Shown piece after piece: positions 50,169 to 56,772 of a stretch of DNA of 64,000 nt. Positions within the stretch are counted from its first letter, which is position 1, and every line of letters begins with the position of its first letter. The notes beneath the pieces were generated by a model, which worked only from the letters and a program-made list of their open reading frames with translations, was not told where the DNA came from and did no database searches. Source of the stretch: Acidobacteriota bacterium. Its GTDB lineage: Bacteria; Acidobacteriota; Polarisedimenticolia; J045. The stretch covers positions 1-64,000 of the forward strand of contig JAUZRX010000017.1 in NCBI GenBank assembly GCA_030949985.1, given 5' to 3'. Position numbers and translations under genes: made by a program.

Positions 50169-50206
50169 AGGGGCTCAAGCCGCAGGCGCGCTGACGATCT
50201 CCGGGG

Positions 50207-50599
50207 CGATCGGATCCGTGCCACCAGGTGGCGGTCGCAATCCCACACCGCCAGGTCGAACCCGCGCAAGCAGTCGGCGGGGAACGAGCGCGCGTGAGGA
50301 CCGCCGATCACCGTCACCGTGCCTCGCCGCTGATAGCAGCGTGAGATGGCATAGGCCAGGGGGCTGGCGTGGGTGTGGCAACCCATGAAGAGAAAATCGA
50401 GGTCTTCGGGCAACCTGCAGGAAGGATCACCCACGCCGTAGTAGGTGGCATAGAAAGCCGTATGTCCCGCCTGACGGCACCAGACGGAGATCGCCTGGGG
50501 CGTGACGGAGGCGTACTGCCGGGTCATCACTTCACAGTAGGCGCGCTGCCCCCGCGTTTGCGCAGGCAAAGCGAGAATATCGAGCACACCGACCCGCAT
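50207..50599 (-). pseudogene. Truncated B12-binding radical SAM gene
   Basis: The minus-strand frame starts well: GGAGGAGGGG before ATG 50599, then a B12-binding-like region including FLFMGCHTHASPLAYAISR and VTVIGGPHARSFPADCLRGFDLAVW. These follow the N-terminal cobalamin-binding part of radical SAM proteins. After about 130 codons the similarity ends near 50207 and the frame runs antisense through clpB. The radical SAM core with CxxxCxxC is missing, so this is an amputated gene. Confidence 0.5.
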
Positions 50600-50780
50600 C
50601 GCCCCTCCTCCTGGCTGCTGCGTGACCGAACCTTGCCAGAGGGGTACGCCGAGGGGCTTTGCGGCGCCATTTTTTAAATCGGGAGCGGTTTTCTCGCCGC
50701 AAGGTCTGGCTGGAATCTGAATCGAAGGACTTGAATGGCAAGGAGATTCTGTGGTACCTGTTGGCCCTCGCTGTACATTC

Positions 50781-50808
50781 CATGTGTGACGGGCCATGTG
50801 TGACGGGC
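50781..50808 (+). repeat. Tandem duplication of a 14-base unit
   Basis: CATGTGTGACGGGC occurs twice in direct succession (50781-50794 and 50795-50808). It is upstream of the metalloprotease start and creates duplicate ATGs without a good ribosome-binding site. Confidence 0.85.
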
Positions 50809-50822
50809 CGGCTCCGGCCCGT
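50803..50822 (+). promoter_or_regulatory. Perfect hairpin next to the metalloprotease ribosome-binding site
   Basis: ACGGGCCGG (50803-50811) and CCGGCCCGT (50814-50822) are perfect complements. The hairpin ends one base before GGGGAGG, the likely site for ATG 50836. It might be a leader stem or a terminator without T tract. Confidence 0.5.
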
Positions 50823-50835
50823 GGGGAGGCGTTCG

Positions 50836-52130
50836 ATGCAGACGAAGGCGAAGCGAAGGTCTCTCTCTCTCTCGTAGCTCTTCTTGTCTCGGTTCTTAGT
50901 CCTCCGGTCATGGCGATCACAGGCCCAGATCCCTGTGTCGAGGTGGATGACGACTACCTGACGCCGACCTGGCCGGCGATCAGCGGCAATGATGGGACGC
51001 TGCTTACCGAGGTGGCACCGCTCACCGGGAACGTCTGGATCTGGGCTGCTCCCGACGACGCACCGCCCTCGGCCTCCACGGCGATTCTCGCTCTTGGCCA
51101 GAACGTGCTGGTTTCCGCCTACCGGTCGGACAGCGATCCTCCGATTGACAAGACCACGAACCCTCTTGGGCAATACTCGGTCAACGTACCGACCAAGACA
51201 GGGACTCTCGTTGCAGATCTTGTTTCCCCCGACTTTTCAGTCTTCTCCGCCGCACTCGATTCGGGAACCCTCAATGCGGATTGCGACGGCGATGGAGTGG
51301 CAGATGGCTCCTTGTACCGGGTCACTCAGACATGGGATACCGACGTTTCCCTGGAGTACGACTTCACGCTCGCTGGTAACGGCATGGACGCCAAGACTGC
51401 TTCTGGAAACGCTTACCTGCATGTCAATGGTGCCATCGATTGGGTACGGAGCGTCTTGCCGTCCTGGAATCCGGAGATACCCAACGGCAACCAGCCGAAT
51501 CTGACCGCGATCACCAATGTGCCGAAGCACTGCTACCCGCCCCCCATCGGCGGTTGCGTCTATCTCAACTGCAACGCCAAGTACAGTCCCGGCACCAACC
51601 GAATTCTCACCGGCGCCGGTGGCGACTGCGGCAACGGTCAGACCGCGACGAATACAGCCAGTTCGACAATCCTGCGCCACGAGTTCGGGCATCTTTTCGT
51701 GCGAACCCACTCGATCTTGACGAATCCCGCTGCCTGCAATGAGAATGACTACTATGGCTTCGATGAGGGGGTGTCTGACGCTTTCGCTGCCCTCTCCCTG
51801 GGCACAAGCTGCATTGGTGAGGGTTTCCTGTCTGCGGGATGTCTCCGAGACCTGGATAACGAAACTCAGTACCCTGTCAACGGGACCGATTCTCACGCGA
51901 AGGGCAAGCCTATCGCAGCCGCTTTCTGGCATCTTCGAGAGGACATCATTGCTGCAAATCCGACGAATGGAGCGCGAGATACGAAGGCTCTGTTTCTCTT
52001 GGCACTGCAAAACAACACAGCGTGTTGGGATTCCATTCGATCTGATCTGGTAGAAGTAGACAGTAGCTTCTTTTCAGGCCAGTATTCAGCGCTCATCAAT
52101 GCTGCGTTGAACCGTCACAATATTCCATGA
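50836..52130 (+). CDS. Secreted zinc metalloprotease, start out of frame at a (TC)7 tract
   Basis: Gluzincin-type protease: HEFGH zinc motif followed about 27 residues later by FDEGVSDAF, the equivalent of the thermolysin NEAISD third ligand. The protein is exported and has many cysteines. The open frame runs from ATG 50796, which has no ribosome-binding site. The best site, GGGGAGG six bases before ATG 50836, begins a perfect signal peptide n-region (MQTKAKRRSLSL) in another frame. It hits a stop at 50875. Removing one TC unit from the (TC)7 run (50860-50873) would join it to VALLVSVLSPPVMA. The gene is either frameshifted, phase-variable or mis-sequenced. The next gene overlaps its stop (ATGA). 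Confidence 0.78.
50860..50873 (+). repeat. (TC)7 dinucleotide tract in the signal-peptide region
   Basis: Seven TC units run without interruption. With seven units the frame from ATG 50836 stops after 13 codons. With six units it continues through the metalloprotease. Copy-number slippage would switch the gene on or off. Confidence 0.85.
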
Positions 52131-53881
52131 TGCTCTGGTTGCGTTCTGTCAGAGGTTGCCGGGGTTCTCTTCATGGACGAGAGGTGGGGCTCCTCTGGAG
52201 ACAGGTGCTGCTACTCGCATGGCTGTCGCTCTACCTGGTCATTGACGCAACACCTTGTGTCCTGGCCCAAACGTGGGCATCGGCGCTGAGTTCCTCGGCG
52301 CAGGACGATAGCGCTGACGCGGTCATGGCCACCAGTGGTGGCCGGTGGATTCTCGCTGGAGCTGCCAATCAGGACGGCAATCGGGACGATGCCCTTCTAG
52401 TGGCGGTCGATGCTCAGGGCGACGTGATCTGGTCTGCTGCCTATGGTGGTTCTTCACGAGAAGTCCTGCGGGATCTGATCGCGTTGGATGGTGGACAAGT
52501 GATGGCGATTGGGTCGACGAGATCTTTCGGCATGGGATACGCGGACGCTCTGATCATGGTTGTAAATGCGCGGGGGAAAGTCGTCTGGGCACGGGCCTAC
52601 GGCATGGATCAAGAGGAGGCGTTGGTGGCCATGGGGATGGCCGGCAAGGACGCGATCGTGGTTGGCGGAAACTCGAACGACTTTTCCCGAACCGATTTTC
52701 TCGTCCTCAAGATAGATCGACTGGGAAGACTTCTCTGGCATCGAACTTACGGTATTGCCGAGGAATTCGAGTCCCTCGAGGACTTGGCCGTCATGCCGGA
52801 CGGAGGCTTTCTGCTGGTGGGTTCCACCAGCTTTGGCGAGGATTCTCGCGATCACGGGTTGGCTGTCCGAGTTGACGCGTCGGGGGCCATTGTTTGGCAG
52901 CGGACTTTTCGCATGCAAGGTGCGGACGTTTTTCGTGCCGTCGTGGTTCTGGACGACGGAGGCTGCCTCATTGCCGGACAGGCTCACACGATTCACAGCA
53001 TCCTACCGCGGGGCTGGCTGCTTCGCCTGGATTCACACGGCGAGATCGTATGGCACCAGGAGTTGCCGTTCGACAGCCTCGAGGGAGGGAGTTTCTACGA
53101 TCTGATCCTGACTCCCGAAGGAACGGCTTTGGCTTCTGGAGACTACACTCCCTACGGAGAGCAGGCTTCGGAGGGATGGCTACTCGCCTTCGATCCCTCC
53201 GACGGGTCGGTGTTCTGGCAGCGGTCATACGGGGATTTCGAGCTTGAGCGTTTGTATGGATCCGTGTGCCTGGCGGACCGAGGTTGCCTCTTTGCTGGAT
53301 TGACGCGCTCCTACAGCCGTGGCCAGCTTTACAGCCTGAACGACACCCTTATTCTTCGTACCGACGACAACGCAAGCGTTTCCCCCGCCTGCACGATCGG
53401 TGGAGTTCCCAATGCCATAGCGGAGCAACAACCTGTGACCGTCGAGTCCTACGCAGGAGTAGAAGGGGAACTGCTGGACCTGACCGTCACGATGATCGGA
53501 ATGCAAGCTGTGCAGGTGGAAACGTCTCGGGATGAGATCTGCACCGGTGCGACGCTGTTTCCTCCGACAGAGGTTTCGCCGGCGGAATCTCTGACACCTC
53601 TGCTGTTCACCGATGCGACCCACCTGGAGTGGGAGGCGGCGGCGCCGAGTGCTTCGGATTCATTCGACCTGTACCGCGGTGACGTGGCCGACCTGGGGCT
53701 GGGGGGCGCAGGAGTATGTCTGGCCACGGGCCTGACAGCGCCGGCGGCCACGGATGAGGAGCAGCCCGCTCCGGCGCAGGCGTGGTTCTACCTGGTCGGC
53801 GGCGTCAATGCCGCGGGGTGGGGGCCGCTGGGCGTGGCGAGTGACGGCTCCGAGCGACAGGCGGCGACGTACTGCCCGTAG
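52127..53881 (+). CDS. Secreted beta-propeller-like protein
   Basis: A 584-residue exported protein. After a long basic n-region and hydrophobic helix (about 25-45), repeated blades follow of the kind (D)ALLVAVDAQGDVIW, ...VLKIDRLGRLLWHRTYG, ...VRVDASGAIVWQRTF and ...LRLDSHGEIVWHQEL. At least six repeats end in (V/L)W plus a Tyr-Gly, as in PQQ/kelch-like propellers. The last 90 residues form a separate FN3-like domain (LEWEAAAPSASDSFDLYRG) ending TYCP. Overlaps the metalloprotease stop by ATGA, so the pair is an operon. Ligand unknown. Confidence 0.78.
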   Translation: MMLWLRSVRGCRGSLHGREVGLLWRQVLLLAWLSLYLVIDATPCVLAQTWASALSSSAQDDSADAVMATSGGRWILAGAANQDGNRDDALLVAVDAQGDVIWSAAYGGSSREVLRDLIALDGGQVMAIGSTRSFGMGYADALIMVVNARGKVVWARAYGMDQEEALVAMGMAGKDAIVVGGNSNDFSRTDFLVLKIDRLGRLLWHRTYGIAEEFESLEDLAVMPDGGFLLVGSTSFGEDSRDHGLAVRVDASGAIVWQRTFRMQGADVFRAVVVLDDGGCLIAGQAHTIHSILPRGWLLRLDSHGEIVWHQELPFDSLEGGSFYDLILTPEGTALASGDYTPYGEQASEGWLLAFDPSDGSVFWQRSYGDFELERLYGSVCLADRGCLFAGLTRSYSRGQLYSLNDTLILRTDDNASVSPACTIGGVPNAIAEQQPVTVESYAGVEGELLDLTVTMIGMQAVQVETSRDEICTGATLFPPTEVSPAESLTPLLFTDATHLEWEAAAPSASDSFDLYRGDVADLGLGGAGVCLATGLTAPAATDEEQPAPAQAWFYLVGGVNAAGWGPLGVASDGSERQAATYCP

Positions 53882-53913
53882 GGTTTCGGCGTAGATTCCA
53901 GGGGAGGCCCCCG

Positions 53914-56772
53914 ATGAAGGCGACGACTCTCAGAAGACTCTCAGCGTTCGTGGCTGCCGGCCTGCTGCTCGGGCCGTTCTGGATGTCGGCCTGGGCGGCC
54001 TCGCCGCCGGAGCTTTGCGACGGTCGCGACAACGACGCCGACGGCTCGCTGGACGAGGGGTGCCTGCGCACCTGCGGGGATCGGCGGATGACCGTGCTGG
54101 CCGCGGTGGCGACCCAGAACAGCAATGCGCTGACCGGCTTCGGGCGTGACCGCGCGGTGGCCTGGGATGGGGCGCGTCTGGCGGTGGTCTGGATGGAACA
54201 CGACACCGACGGCGGTGCCCAGGATCCGGCGGTTTACCTGCGGCGCTACGACAGCGCGGCCCAGCCGCTGGAAGCGCCGATCGAGGTCGCACCGCTGGTG
54301 GATGCCTCCGGCCTGAGTGGCCCCACAGTGACCTCGTCCCCAGGCGGCTATGGCGTGGCCTGGGACGCGGGCACGCCGGGCAACGAGCAGGTGCACTTCG
54401 CCTTCGTCGATGGGGCGGGGAACCTCGACGCGGGCCCCGTCGTGGTCAGCGGTGCCGGCTTCCGGGACGACGATCCGGCCATCGCCTGGGACGGCAGCGC
54501 CTTCGTCGTGGCCTGGGTTCGGGGACGCGATCACGTCTACATGGCCCGGGTGGCGCCGGATGGCAGTGTGCTGGTACCGGAGACCTGCGTTTCTTGCTCG
54601 GTCAGCGCGGGGGCCGCCGAGGTGAGCCTGGCGTTGCGCGGTGAGGAGATCGGCTATGCCTGGGCCGCGGGCGATGGGACGGGCACGATCCGCTTTGCGC
54701 GCTCGGCACTCGACGGCAGCCTGCTCGGTTCGGTGGTCGACCTGTCGTCGGGCAACGGAGGAGACGATCCGAGCCTGGTGGCCACTGCTGCCGGCTGGGC
54801 CGTGGCCTGGTCGGAGAGGCCTGGCATCCTGGGTTCCACCGAGATCCGTTTTCAGCGTCTGAATGCCGCGGGAACTCCCCTCGACACGGCCAGCCGCCTC
54901 GACGACGGGGTGACGACCTATGCCATCGATCCGGCGGTGGTCTGGACCGGCGAGGAGTACCTGGTCACGTGGGTGGCCTACTGGCCCGGCGGTGGTTTCG
55001 GCGACCAGTGGCAGCTCGCCGCGCGGCAGGCGGACGATCAGGGGGTGGCCCAGGGCGCCGTCTCCCTGCACCAGGAAGACGTGATCTACGACTTCGCCCG
55101 CGTCTCCACCGTCTGGACGGGCTCGTACCTGGGCGTCGTCTGGCGCTTCCAGGTGGGCGACATCGGCCCGCTGCAGAGCTTCGTGCGCATCGGCGGCCTG
55201 CGCTGCTGCGCCGATGGCGATGGCGACGGCGTGAGCTGGTGTGACGGCGACGCCGACGATGGCGACGCGACGGTCTTTCCCGATGCCACCGAGGCCTGCG
55301 ACGGCCGCGACAACGACCTCGACGGCTCCCTCGACGAGGGCTGCGAGCGCTCCTGCGAGGCGGCGCCGGTGGCGGCGATGGAAGACTTCGGCACCCAGCA
55401 GGATTCCGGCGTGGCCCTGGCCACCGGCGGCGACGAAGTCTTCTTGGTGCATGCCGACCCGGCTGCCCCCGGCGTGCAGCTCGTCGTCGAGCGGGGCGAC
55501 GCGCCCTGGAGTACCGAGCGCGTGGAAGAAGACGAGGCCATCAGCACCCAGCCCGCCGCCACCTGGACCGGCACGCGCATCGCCGCGGTCTTCCGCGACG
55601 CGCGCGAGGCCGACCCGCGCCTGCGGGTGACCCTGCGCGACGGGTTGGGCGCCGCGCCGGTCTATGACGAGCCGGTGGCCCCGGCCGCGTTTGGCACCGA
55701 GGCGCCCGTTCTGGCGTGGGACGGCCTGGGCCTGGCCCTCGGCTGGCGGGAAGGTGCGGACGCCTCCCTGGCCTTCACGCGCCTGCTCGACAGCGGCAAC
55801 CGGCTGCTCGACGGGCTGATCCTGGCTTCCGGCGTGGGCAGCGAAGTGCCCGAACTGGCCCTCGCCCCGGAAGGTGACGGTGGCGTGGCCCTGGCGCTGC
55901 TCGAGCCCGCAGCCGGTGGCCTCGGGGTGAGCTTCGAGCGGCGGGACCGCTTCGGCGCGGCCCGTCATCCCGGCGGCGACCCTGCCGTCGATCCCCGGAC
56001 CCCCGTCGCCGCGCCGGCCCCCGGTCGCCGCGACCCTGCCGTGGTCGCCACCTCCTCGGGCTACCTGGTGACCTGGTCCGGCCCCGAAGGCCCCGGTGGC
56101 CGGCGGGAGATCATCCTGGCTCACCTGGACGGGGAAGGGCAGGTGGTCTCCGGTCCGGCTGCCGTCACCGAAGCCGGTGGTCGGTCGGACCAGCCCGCGC
56201 TGGTCTGGACCGGCGACGAGGCCCTGCTGCTGTTCCGCGATTTCCGCGATGGAGGCCGCAGTCGACCCTTCCGGGTGCGCCTGTCGGCCAGCGGCCAGCG
56301 CCTGGGGCCCGACGTGCCCGTGGGCGATGACCGGGACGTGGACTCCCTCGCCGCCTCCTGGGACGGGCAGCGGGTGCGCCTGGCCTGGAGTCGGCAGGAG
56401 CCGAGTGCCTGGGCCGTTCGGGCGGGCGCCCTGGACTGCGCTGCCGCCGGCGTACCCTCCCTGGTGCGCCGCCTGCGCTTCGTCGACGAGACCACCCTCG
56501 CCTGGGAGACGGTGGAGGCCGCGGTCTACGACGTGGTCAGCGGCGACCTGGGGGCTCTGGCCCGGGGCGAGGGCTTCGCCGCCGCCACCGACACCTGCGA
56601 GGCCAACGACCTGGCTGCCACGGAGTTGGCTGTCGGCGATCGGGCGCTGCCCGCCTTCTACCTGGCGCGGGCGTCGGTGGGGGCCAGCGCGGGCTCCTAC
56701 GCTCCCGATGACGGCGCTCGCACGCCGGATCGCGATGCCGGGATCGCGGCGGCGGCCGCCACCTGCCCCTGA
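53914..56772 (+). CDS. Large secreted protein with MopE-like metal-binding motifs
   Basis: A 952-residue exported protein with a signal peptide (1-28). Two copies of the MopE-type pattern CDGRDNDxDGSLDEGC occur (about residues 35-50 and 460-475), named for putative metal binding, each followed by a propeller-like repeat domain (AWDGSAFVVAWVRG, VWTGEEYLVTWVAY, SPG/SSGYLVTWSG). The C-terminal 100 residues again form an FN3-like domain ending AATCP, similar in layout to the preceding gene. GGGGAGG precedes the ATG. It may bind calcium or other metals outside the cell. Highly repetitive in codon usage, GC-rich, so not from the same source as the metalloprotease. Confidence 0.78.
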   Translation: MKATTLRRLSAFVAAGLLLGPFWMSAWAASPPELCDGRDNDADGSLDEGCLRTCGDRRMTVLAAVATQNSNALTGFGRDRAVAWDGARLAVVWMEHDTDGGAQDPAVYLRRYDSAAQPLEAPIEVAPLVDASGLSGPTVTSSPGGYGVAWDAGTPGNEQVHFAFVDGAGNLDAGPVVVSGAGFRDDDPAIAWDGSAFVVAWVRGRDHVYMARVAPDGSVLVPETCVSCSVSAGAAEVSLALRGEEIGYAWAAGDGTGTIRFARSALDGSLLGSVVDLSSGNGGDDPSLVATAAGWAVAWSERPGILGSTEIRFQRLNAAGTPLDTASRLDDGVTTYAIDPAVVWTGEEYLVTWVAYWPGGGFGDQWQLAARQADDQGVAQGAVSLHQEDVIYDFARVSTVWTGSYLGVVWRFQVGDIGPLQSFVRIGGLRCCADGDGDGVSWCDGDADDGDATVFPDATEACDGRDNDLDGSLDEGCERSCEAAPVAAMEDFGTQQDSGVALATGGDEVFLVHADPAAPGVQLVVERGDAPWSTERVEEDEAISTQPAATWTGTRIAAVFRDAREADPRLRVTLRDGLGAAPVYDEPVAPAAFGTEAPVLAWDGLGLALGWREGADASLAFTRLLDSGNRLLDGLILASGVGSEVPELALAPEGDGGVALALLEPAAGGLGVSFERRDRFGAARHPGGDPAVDPRTPVAAPAPGRRDPAVVATSSGYLVTWSGPEGPGGRREIILAHLDGEGQVVSGPAAVTEAGGRSDQPALVWTGDEALLLFRDFRDGGRSRPFRVRLSASGQRLGPDVPVGDDRDVDSLAASWDGQRVRLAWSRQEPSAWAVRAGALDCAAAGVPSLVRRLRFVDETTLAWETVEAAVYDVVSGDLGALARGEGFAAATDTCEANDLAATELAVGDRALPAFYLARASVGASAGSYAPDDGARTPDRDAGIAAAAATCP

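Follow-up and report, generated by a model that had tools for sequence, protein, structure and literature searches.

Most known cases of phase variation driven by repeats come from host-adapted bacteria with small genomes. In oipA (hopH) of Helicobacter pylori, a CT/TC dinucleotide repeat lies in the signal-peptide coding region, the number of units determines the reading frame and OFF alleles run into an early stop codon; the gene encodes an outer-membrane protein of this pathogen, and unit variation has been documented in hundreds of isolates (PMC10564699). The PhasomeIt cut-off for such tracts is at least six dinucleotide units, and the authors of the Campylobacter phasome study noted that tracts at this cut-off may mutate below 1e-5 (PMC6321876). 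A review cautions that, unless spontaneous switching is demonstrated, tracts near the lower limit of length are not separable from chance occurrences (PMC11868660). A literature search combining Acidobacteriota and phase variation returned no paper on the subject, judged by title or abstract.

The window analysed here, a 64,000 nt stretch of an uncultured Acidobacteriota genome (GenBank assembly GCA_030949985.1, contig JAUZRX010000017.1), carries a (TC)7 tract in the predicted signal-peptide coding region of a putative protease gene. As in oipA, the unit number sets the frame and the OFF allele is predicted to run into an early stop. Whereas oipA has been followed in many isolates, the protease locus is known from one allele, and its target would be a secreted protease-like protein in a bacterium possessing MutS1 and MutL rather than an outer-membrane protein of a pathogen. 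On paper, the locus works like a contingency locus and may be considered a candidate member of that class.

Reading frames at the start of the protease gene

The features described here lie on the forward strand, except where stated. A sequence-only reading had placed the strongest ribosome-binding site of the locus six bases before ATG 50836, and the Shine–Dalgarno sequence GGGGAGG was present exactly there (50823–50829, 6 nt spacer). The (TC)7 microsatellite (50860–50873) starts eight codons downstream of this ATG. With seven units, the frame was closed by TAG (50875–50877) after 13 codons (50836–50877, MQTKAKRRSLSLS), whereas the six-unit reading, MQTKAKRRSLSLVALLVSVLSPPVMA|ITGPDPCVE, was open into the mature protein of 404 aa. 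The remainder of the signal peptide, VALLVSVLSPPVMA, is encoded at 50874–50915, in frame with the protease body. Translation thus upheld the earlier statements that the signal peptide lies one TC unit out of the protease frame, that six units give a clean signal peptide and that seven give a stop at 13 codons. When all unit numbers from four to 10 were translated, only six and nine opened into the protease, the other five (4, 5, 7, 8 and 10) leading to an early stop, so that a change in unit number shifts the frame ON or OFF.

A second start codon, ATG 50796 (50796–50798), opened a frame of 444 aa running through to 52130 and, as also noted in that reading, was not preceded by a Shine–Dalgarno sequence. 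It is created by a 14 bp tandem duplication, CCATGTGTGACGGG ×2 (50780–50807), which was not found in the alignment with a sister species (G001). A palindrome, ACGGGCCGGCTCCGGCCCGT (50803–50822), adjoins the Shine–Dalgarno sequence, is kept in a weaker version in G001 and may form a 5′ mRNA hairpin. No promoter was found in a scan of the locus.

The putative protease and its operon

The mature part of the protein (50916–52130) is intact and contains HEFGH (residues 255–259) and DEGVSD (residues 283–288); HEFGH and E284 were invariant in a three-sequence alignment. The protein thereby shares with the thermolysin/aureolysin-like gluzincins (M4 and relatives) the HExxH motif and a downstream glutamate within (D)EGxxD. 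Unlike those enzymes, it gave no match above the family cut-off in Pfam or NCBIfam and no meaningful match among PDB sequences. The structural model was of low confidence (mean pLDDT 49.7, with higher values over the catalytic half), and its best fold match was aureolysin (7skl; probability 0.99, E 0.21, TM 0.30/0.39). Taken from sequence motifs and the model, 'secreted metalloprotease' is a reasonable, if putative, name.

The protease gene is followed by a gene for a secreted delta-60/PQQ_2-type β-propeller (gene 2, 52127–53881) and by the last gene of the operon (gene 3, 53914–56772), which encodes a secreted protein with MopE (CDGRDND) metal-binding motifs and is preceded by an identical GGGGAGG with a 6 nt spacer before its ATG. 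Gene 2 is probably translationally coupled to the protease gene, because its start codon overlaps the stop codon of the protease gene (ATGA) and it lacks a Shine–Dalgarno sequence; its translation should therefore also fall in the seven-unit allele. GC3 was 0.66–0.68 in the protease and propeller genes (50916–53881), 0.87 in gene 3 and 0.91 in clpB, and the copies in a homologous operon (G003, described below) were similarly low. The low GC3 of the protease and propeller genes suggests foreign origin or weak codon selection.

Homologues and the state of the locus in related genomes

The only close homologue found was in G003 (CP070706.1, Acidobacteriota bin529), a member of another genus, with 46% identity; a scan of approximately 400 genomes of the phylum revealed no further close protease homologue. 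Searching genome contigs with an alignment query gave two loci, a single-sequence search of the same contigs gave nothing, and viral contigs yielded neither protease homologues in an alignment search nor other TC unit numbers in a DNA pattern scan. The protease appears from these comparisons to belong to a small unnamed family, the members found being the G003 protein and a more distantly related deltaproteobacterial one. In the latter (L032 9911–9938), the gene is split by a frame-breaking 13 bp tandem duplication, ctggattagtaga ×2.

The order protease, delta-60/PQQ_2 propeller, MopE-motif protein is the same in G003, where the protease has an in-frame signal peptide of 20 aa directly after a good Shine–Dalgarno sequence. 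At the position corresponding to the window tract, this peptide holds (TC)5, and the S-L-S register is shared as well. The 4.1 Mb G003 genome has only seven (TC)≥5 loci, this one included; the sampled genome has five. Of the evidence for a tract retained under selection, the recurrence of (TC)5 in G003 is, as far as two sequences can indicate, the strongest.

Of the related genomes, with which the sequence-only reading had proposed a comparison, G003 thus carries a shorter tract, and in the sister species the operon has been deleted. G001 belongs to the same genus (ClpB 96% identical) and lacks any stretch matching 50846–56703, that is, the whole protease–propeller–MopE operon; in the remnant (L108 2203–2260), the gene-1 leader is joined to the gene-3 start, followed by the last codons of gene 3. 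Upstream of the protease in the window, a divergent radical-SAM-like gene (50175–50600, reverse strand) consists of an N-terminal part and an out-of-frame tail. The gene is full length in G001 (510 aa), relative to which approximately 1.1 kb is missing in the window, the gap adjoining the end of clpB. With a truncated neighbour here and loss of the operon in G001, the locus is eroding in the genus.

Rarity of the tract

Repeats were surveyed in 1.99 Mb of genome stretches and by pattern searches of the whole genome. In the genome as a whole (3,709,993 bp in 133 contigs), searched on both strands, the tract at 50860–50873 was the sole (TC)≥7. Runs of the AG/CT class in the 1.99 Mb (GC approximately 68% in the first 1.04 Mb) numbered 42 of 8 nt, 18 of 9 nt, two of 10 nt, none of 11–13 nt and one of 14 nt. 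Between 0.053 and 0.004 (TC)≥7 tracts were expected per genome under Markov models of orders 1–5. The tract thus exceeds what composition gives, and its seven units lie above the cut-off of six dinucleotide units for tracts of hypermutable length. The Ser-Leu repeats of the signal peptide ease TC runs; in simulations based on the codon usage of the operon itself, a 12 nt TC run in the protease signal peptide had P = 0.003, and in a codon simulation of the G003 signal peptide a 10 nt run had P = 0.02.

Apart from (TC)7, the longest arrays of short units detected in the sampled genome were a 28 bp pentanucleotide array, (GAGGT)5.6 (G000:C10, L026 635–662), (ACAAG)4 (L171 1226) and a 31 bp (CCGGTCG) array (L147 17551).

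A proposed frameshift at an eroding locus, or a possible evolved switch

Our preferred reading, which we hold to be about evenly balanced between right and wrong, is that slippage has caused a frameshift at a locus in decay. ATG 50836 would be the start codon of the protease, with a (TC)n tract prone to slippage inside the export signal. Through slipped-strand mispairing, the tract would have been left at seven units, ending translation after 13 codons; the secreted metalloprotease would then be OFF and the coupled β-propeller gene probably OFF too. Because ATG 50796 is an unlikely start (see below) and G003 has an in-frame signal peptide with (TC)5, repeat slippage that shifted the frame to OFF is the most likely origin of the sampled allele. 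A switch to six or nine units would realign the frames, and the change would therefore be reversible in principle. MutS1 and MutL are both present and complete in the genome, so two-base slippage should be rare and, with only seven units, the rate of switching low.

Since neighbouring genes are also decaying, an evolved switch is no more likely than a gene that has simply been broken, and the slippage event would more likely be part of the decay of the locus. Three observations count against the preferred reading. With all 404 codons of the protease body uninterrupted and the genes behind it still open, function can only have been lost recently, if at all; upstream of the tract, codon statistics give the 50836 frame no advantage over the open frame; and even the (TC)6 of the ON allele is improbable from codon choice (the P = 0.003 given above), which, together with (TC)5 in G003, fits selection on the tract.

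This last point leads to the explanation that survives best beside the preferred one: the tract may be kept as a switch, the protease and the coupled propeller being secreted when the unit number is a multiple of three (3n, ON) and not at other numbers (OFF), which would give a mixed population. We regard this as possible, though doubtful. The longest dinucleotide tract found in the genome lies inside a signal peptide, downstream of the start codon, in a gene with a surface or secreted target; its seven units exceed the published cut-off of at least six (PMC6321876); and G003 has a tract in the same peptide and register, both runs being improbable in the codon simulations. Against this, seven units is short, and tracts near the limit are those that the review considers indistinguishable from chance (PMC11868660). 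The five units of G003 would be slow, mismatch repair appears functional, no other repeat-driven switch was established within the 1.99 Mb sampled, and the neighbouring gene and the sister-species operon have been lost in part or whole. The sequence-only reading had credited the locus with the design of a contingency locus; its geometry, which resembles that of oipA and passes the cut-off, bears this out. The remainder of the claim is not supported: MutS1 and MutL are intact, the surroundings are eroding and a fixed frameshift fits the data equally well.

Alternative start, sequence error and programmed slippage

If translation began at ATG 50796, the product of the 14 bp duplication, the 444 aa frame would be open from 50796 to 52130 and there would in practice be no frameshift. 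Codon log-odds before the tract slightly favoured this open frame over the 50836 frame, in what is a short leader. The remaining evidence points the other way. ATG 50796 has no Shine–Dalgarno sequence, and neither it nor the duplication was found in G001, where the Shine–Dalgarno region is kept; the G003 homologue has no such N-terminal extension. The net charge of the N-region was −4 from ATG 50796, which lies beyond the range of −2 to +7 among 173 signal-peptide-like N-termini of the same genome, picked by a rough home-made filter and not by SignalP. From ATG 50836, the six-unit peptide had a charge of +4 and a normal H-region. The doubt already cast on ATG 50796 in the sequence-only reading is borne out by the charge and the lack of conservation, and we consider initiation there distinctly unlikely. 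The start position is also conserved in G001, but there the leader of gene 1 has been joined to the start of gene 3, and this conservation was therefore not taken to prove ATG 50836. On balance, comparison of the sequences favours ATG 50836 as the ancestral start, with the seven-unit allele out of frame.

A sequence or assembly error, the true genome having six units, is very unlikely. The genome is a draft in 133 contigs, represented by its consensus only, and assemblies do show two-base indels in repeats; two-base errors in a 14 bp repeat are, however, rare in short-read consensus, and at six units the tract would remain a 12 nt outlier.

Programmed slippage, in which RNA polymerase or the ribosome would slip on the TC tract and bring part of the product into frame with the DNA unchanged, is extremely unlikely: the repetitive tract does lie directly upstream of the frame change, but seven units would require a net two-base RNA deletion or a forward two-base ribosomal hop, we know of no established programmed event of either kind on dinucleotide repeats, RNA folding over the tract was ordinary (z-score 0.12, no stimulatory structure) and an Rfam search of the tract region gave no match.

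Implications

The preferred reading would make the gene a routine example of automated annotation hiding a frameshift, as a gene caller would probably choose ATG 50796 and report an intact gene. It is rather unlikely that a TC switch has been conserved in at least two genera of Acidobacteriota, giving stochastic on/off expression of a gluzincin-like protease–propeller operon in mismatch-repair-proficient bacteria outside the usual host-adapted pathogens. If such a switch were real, a phase-variable case in Acidobacteriota would extend the mechanism to this phylum.
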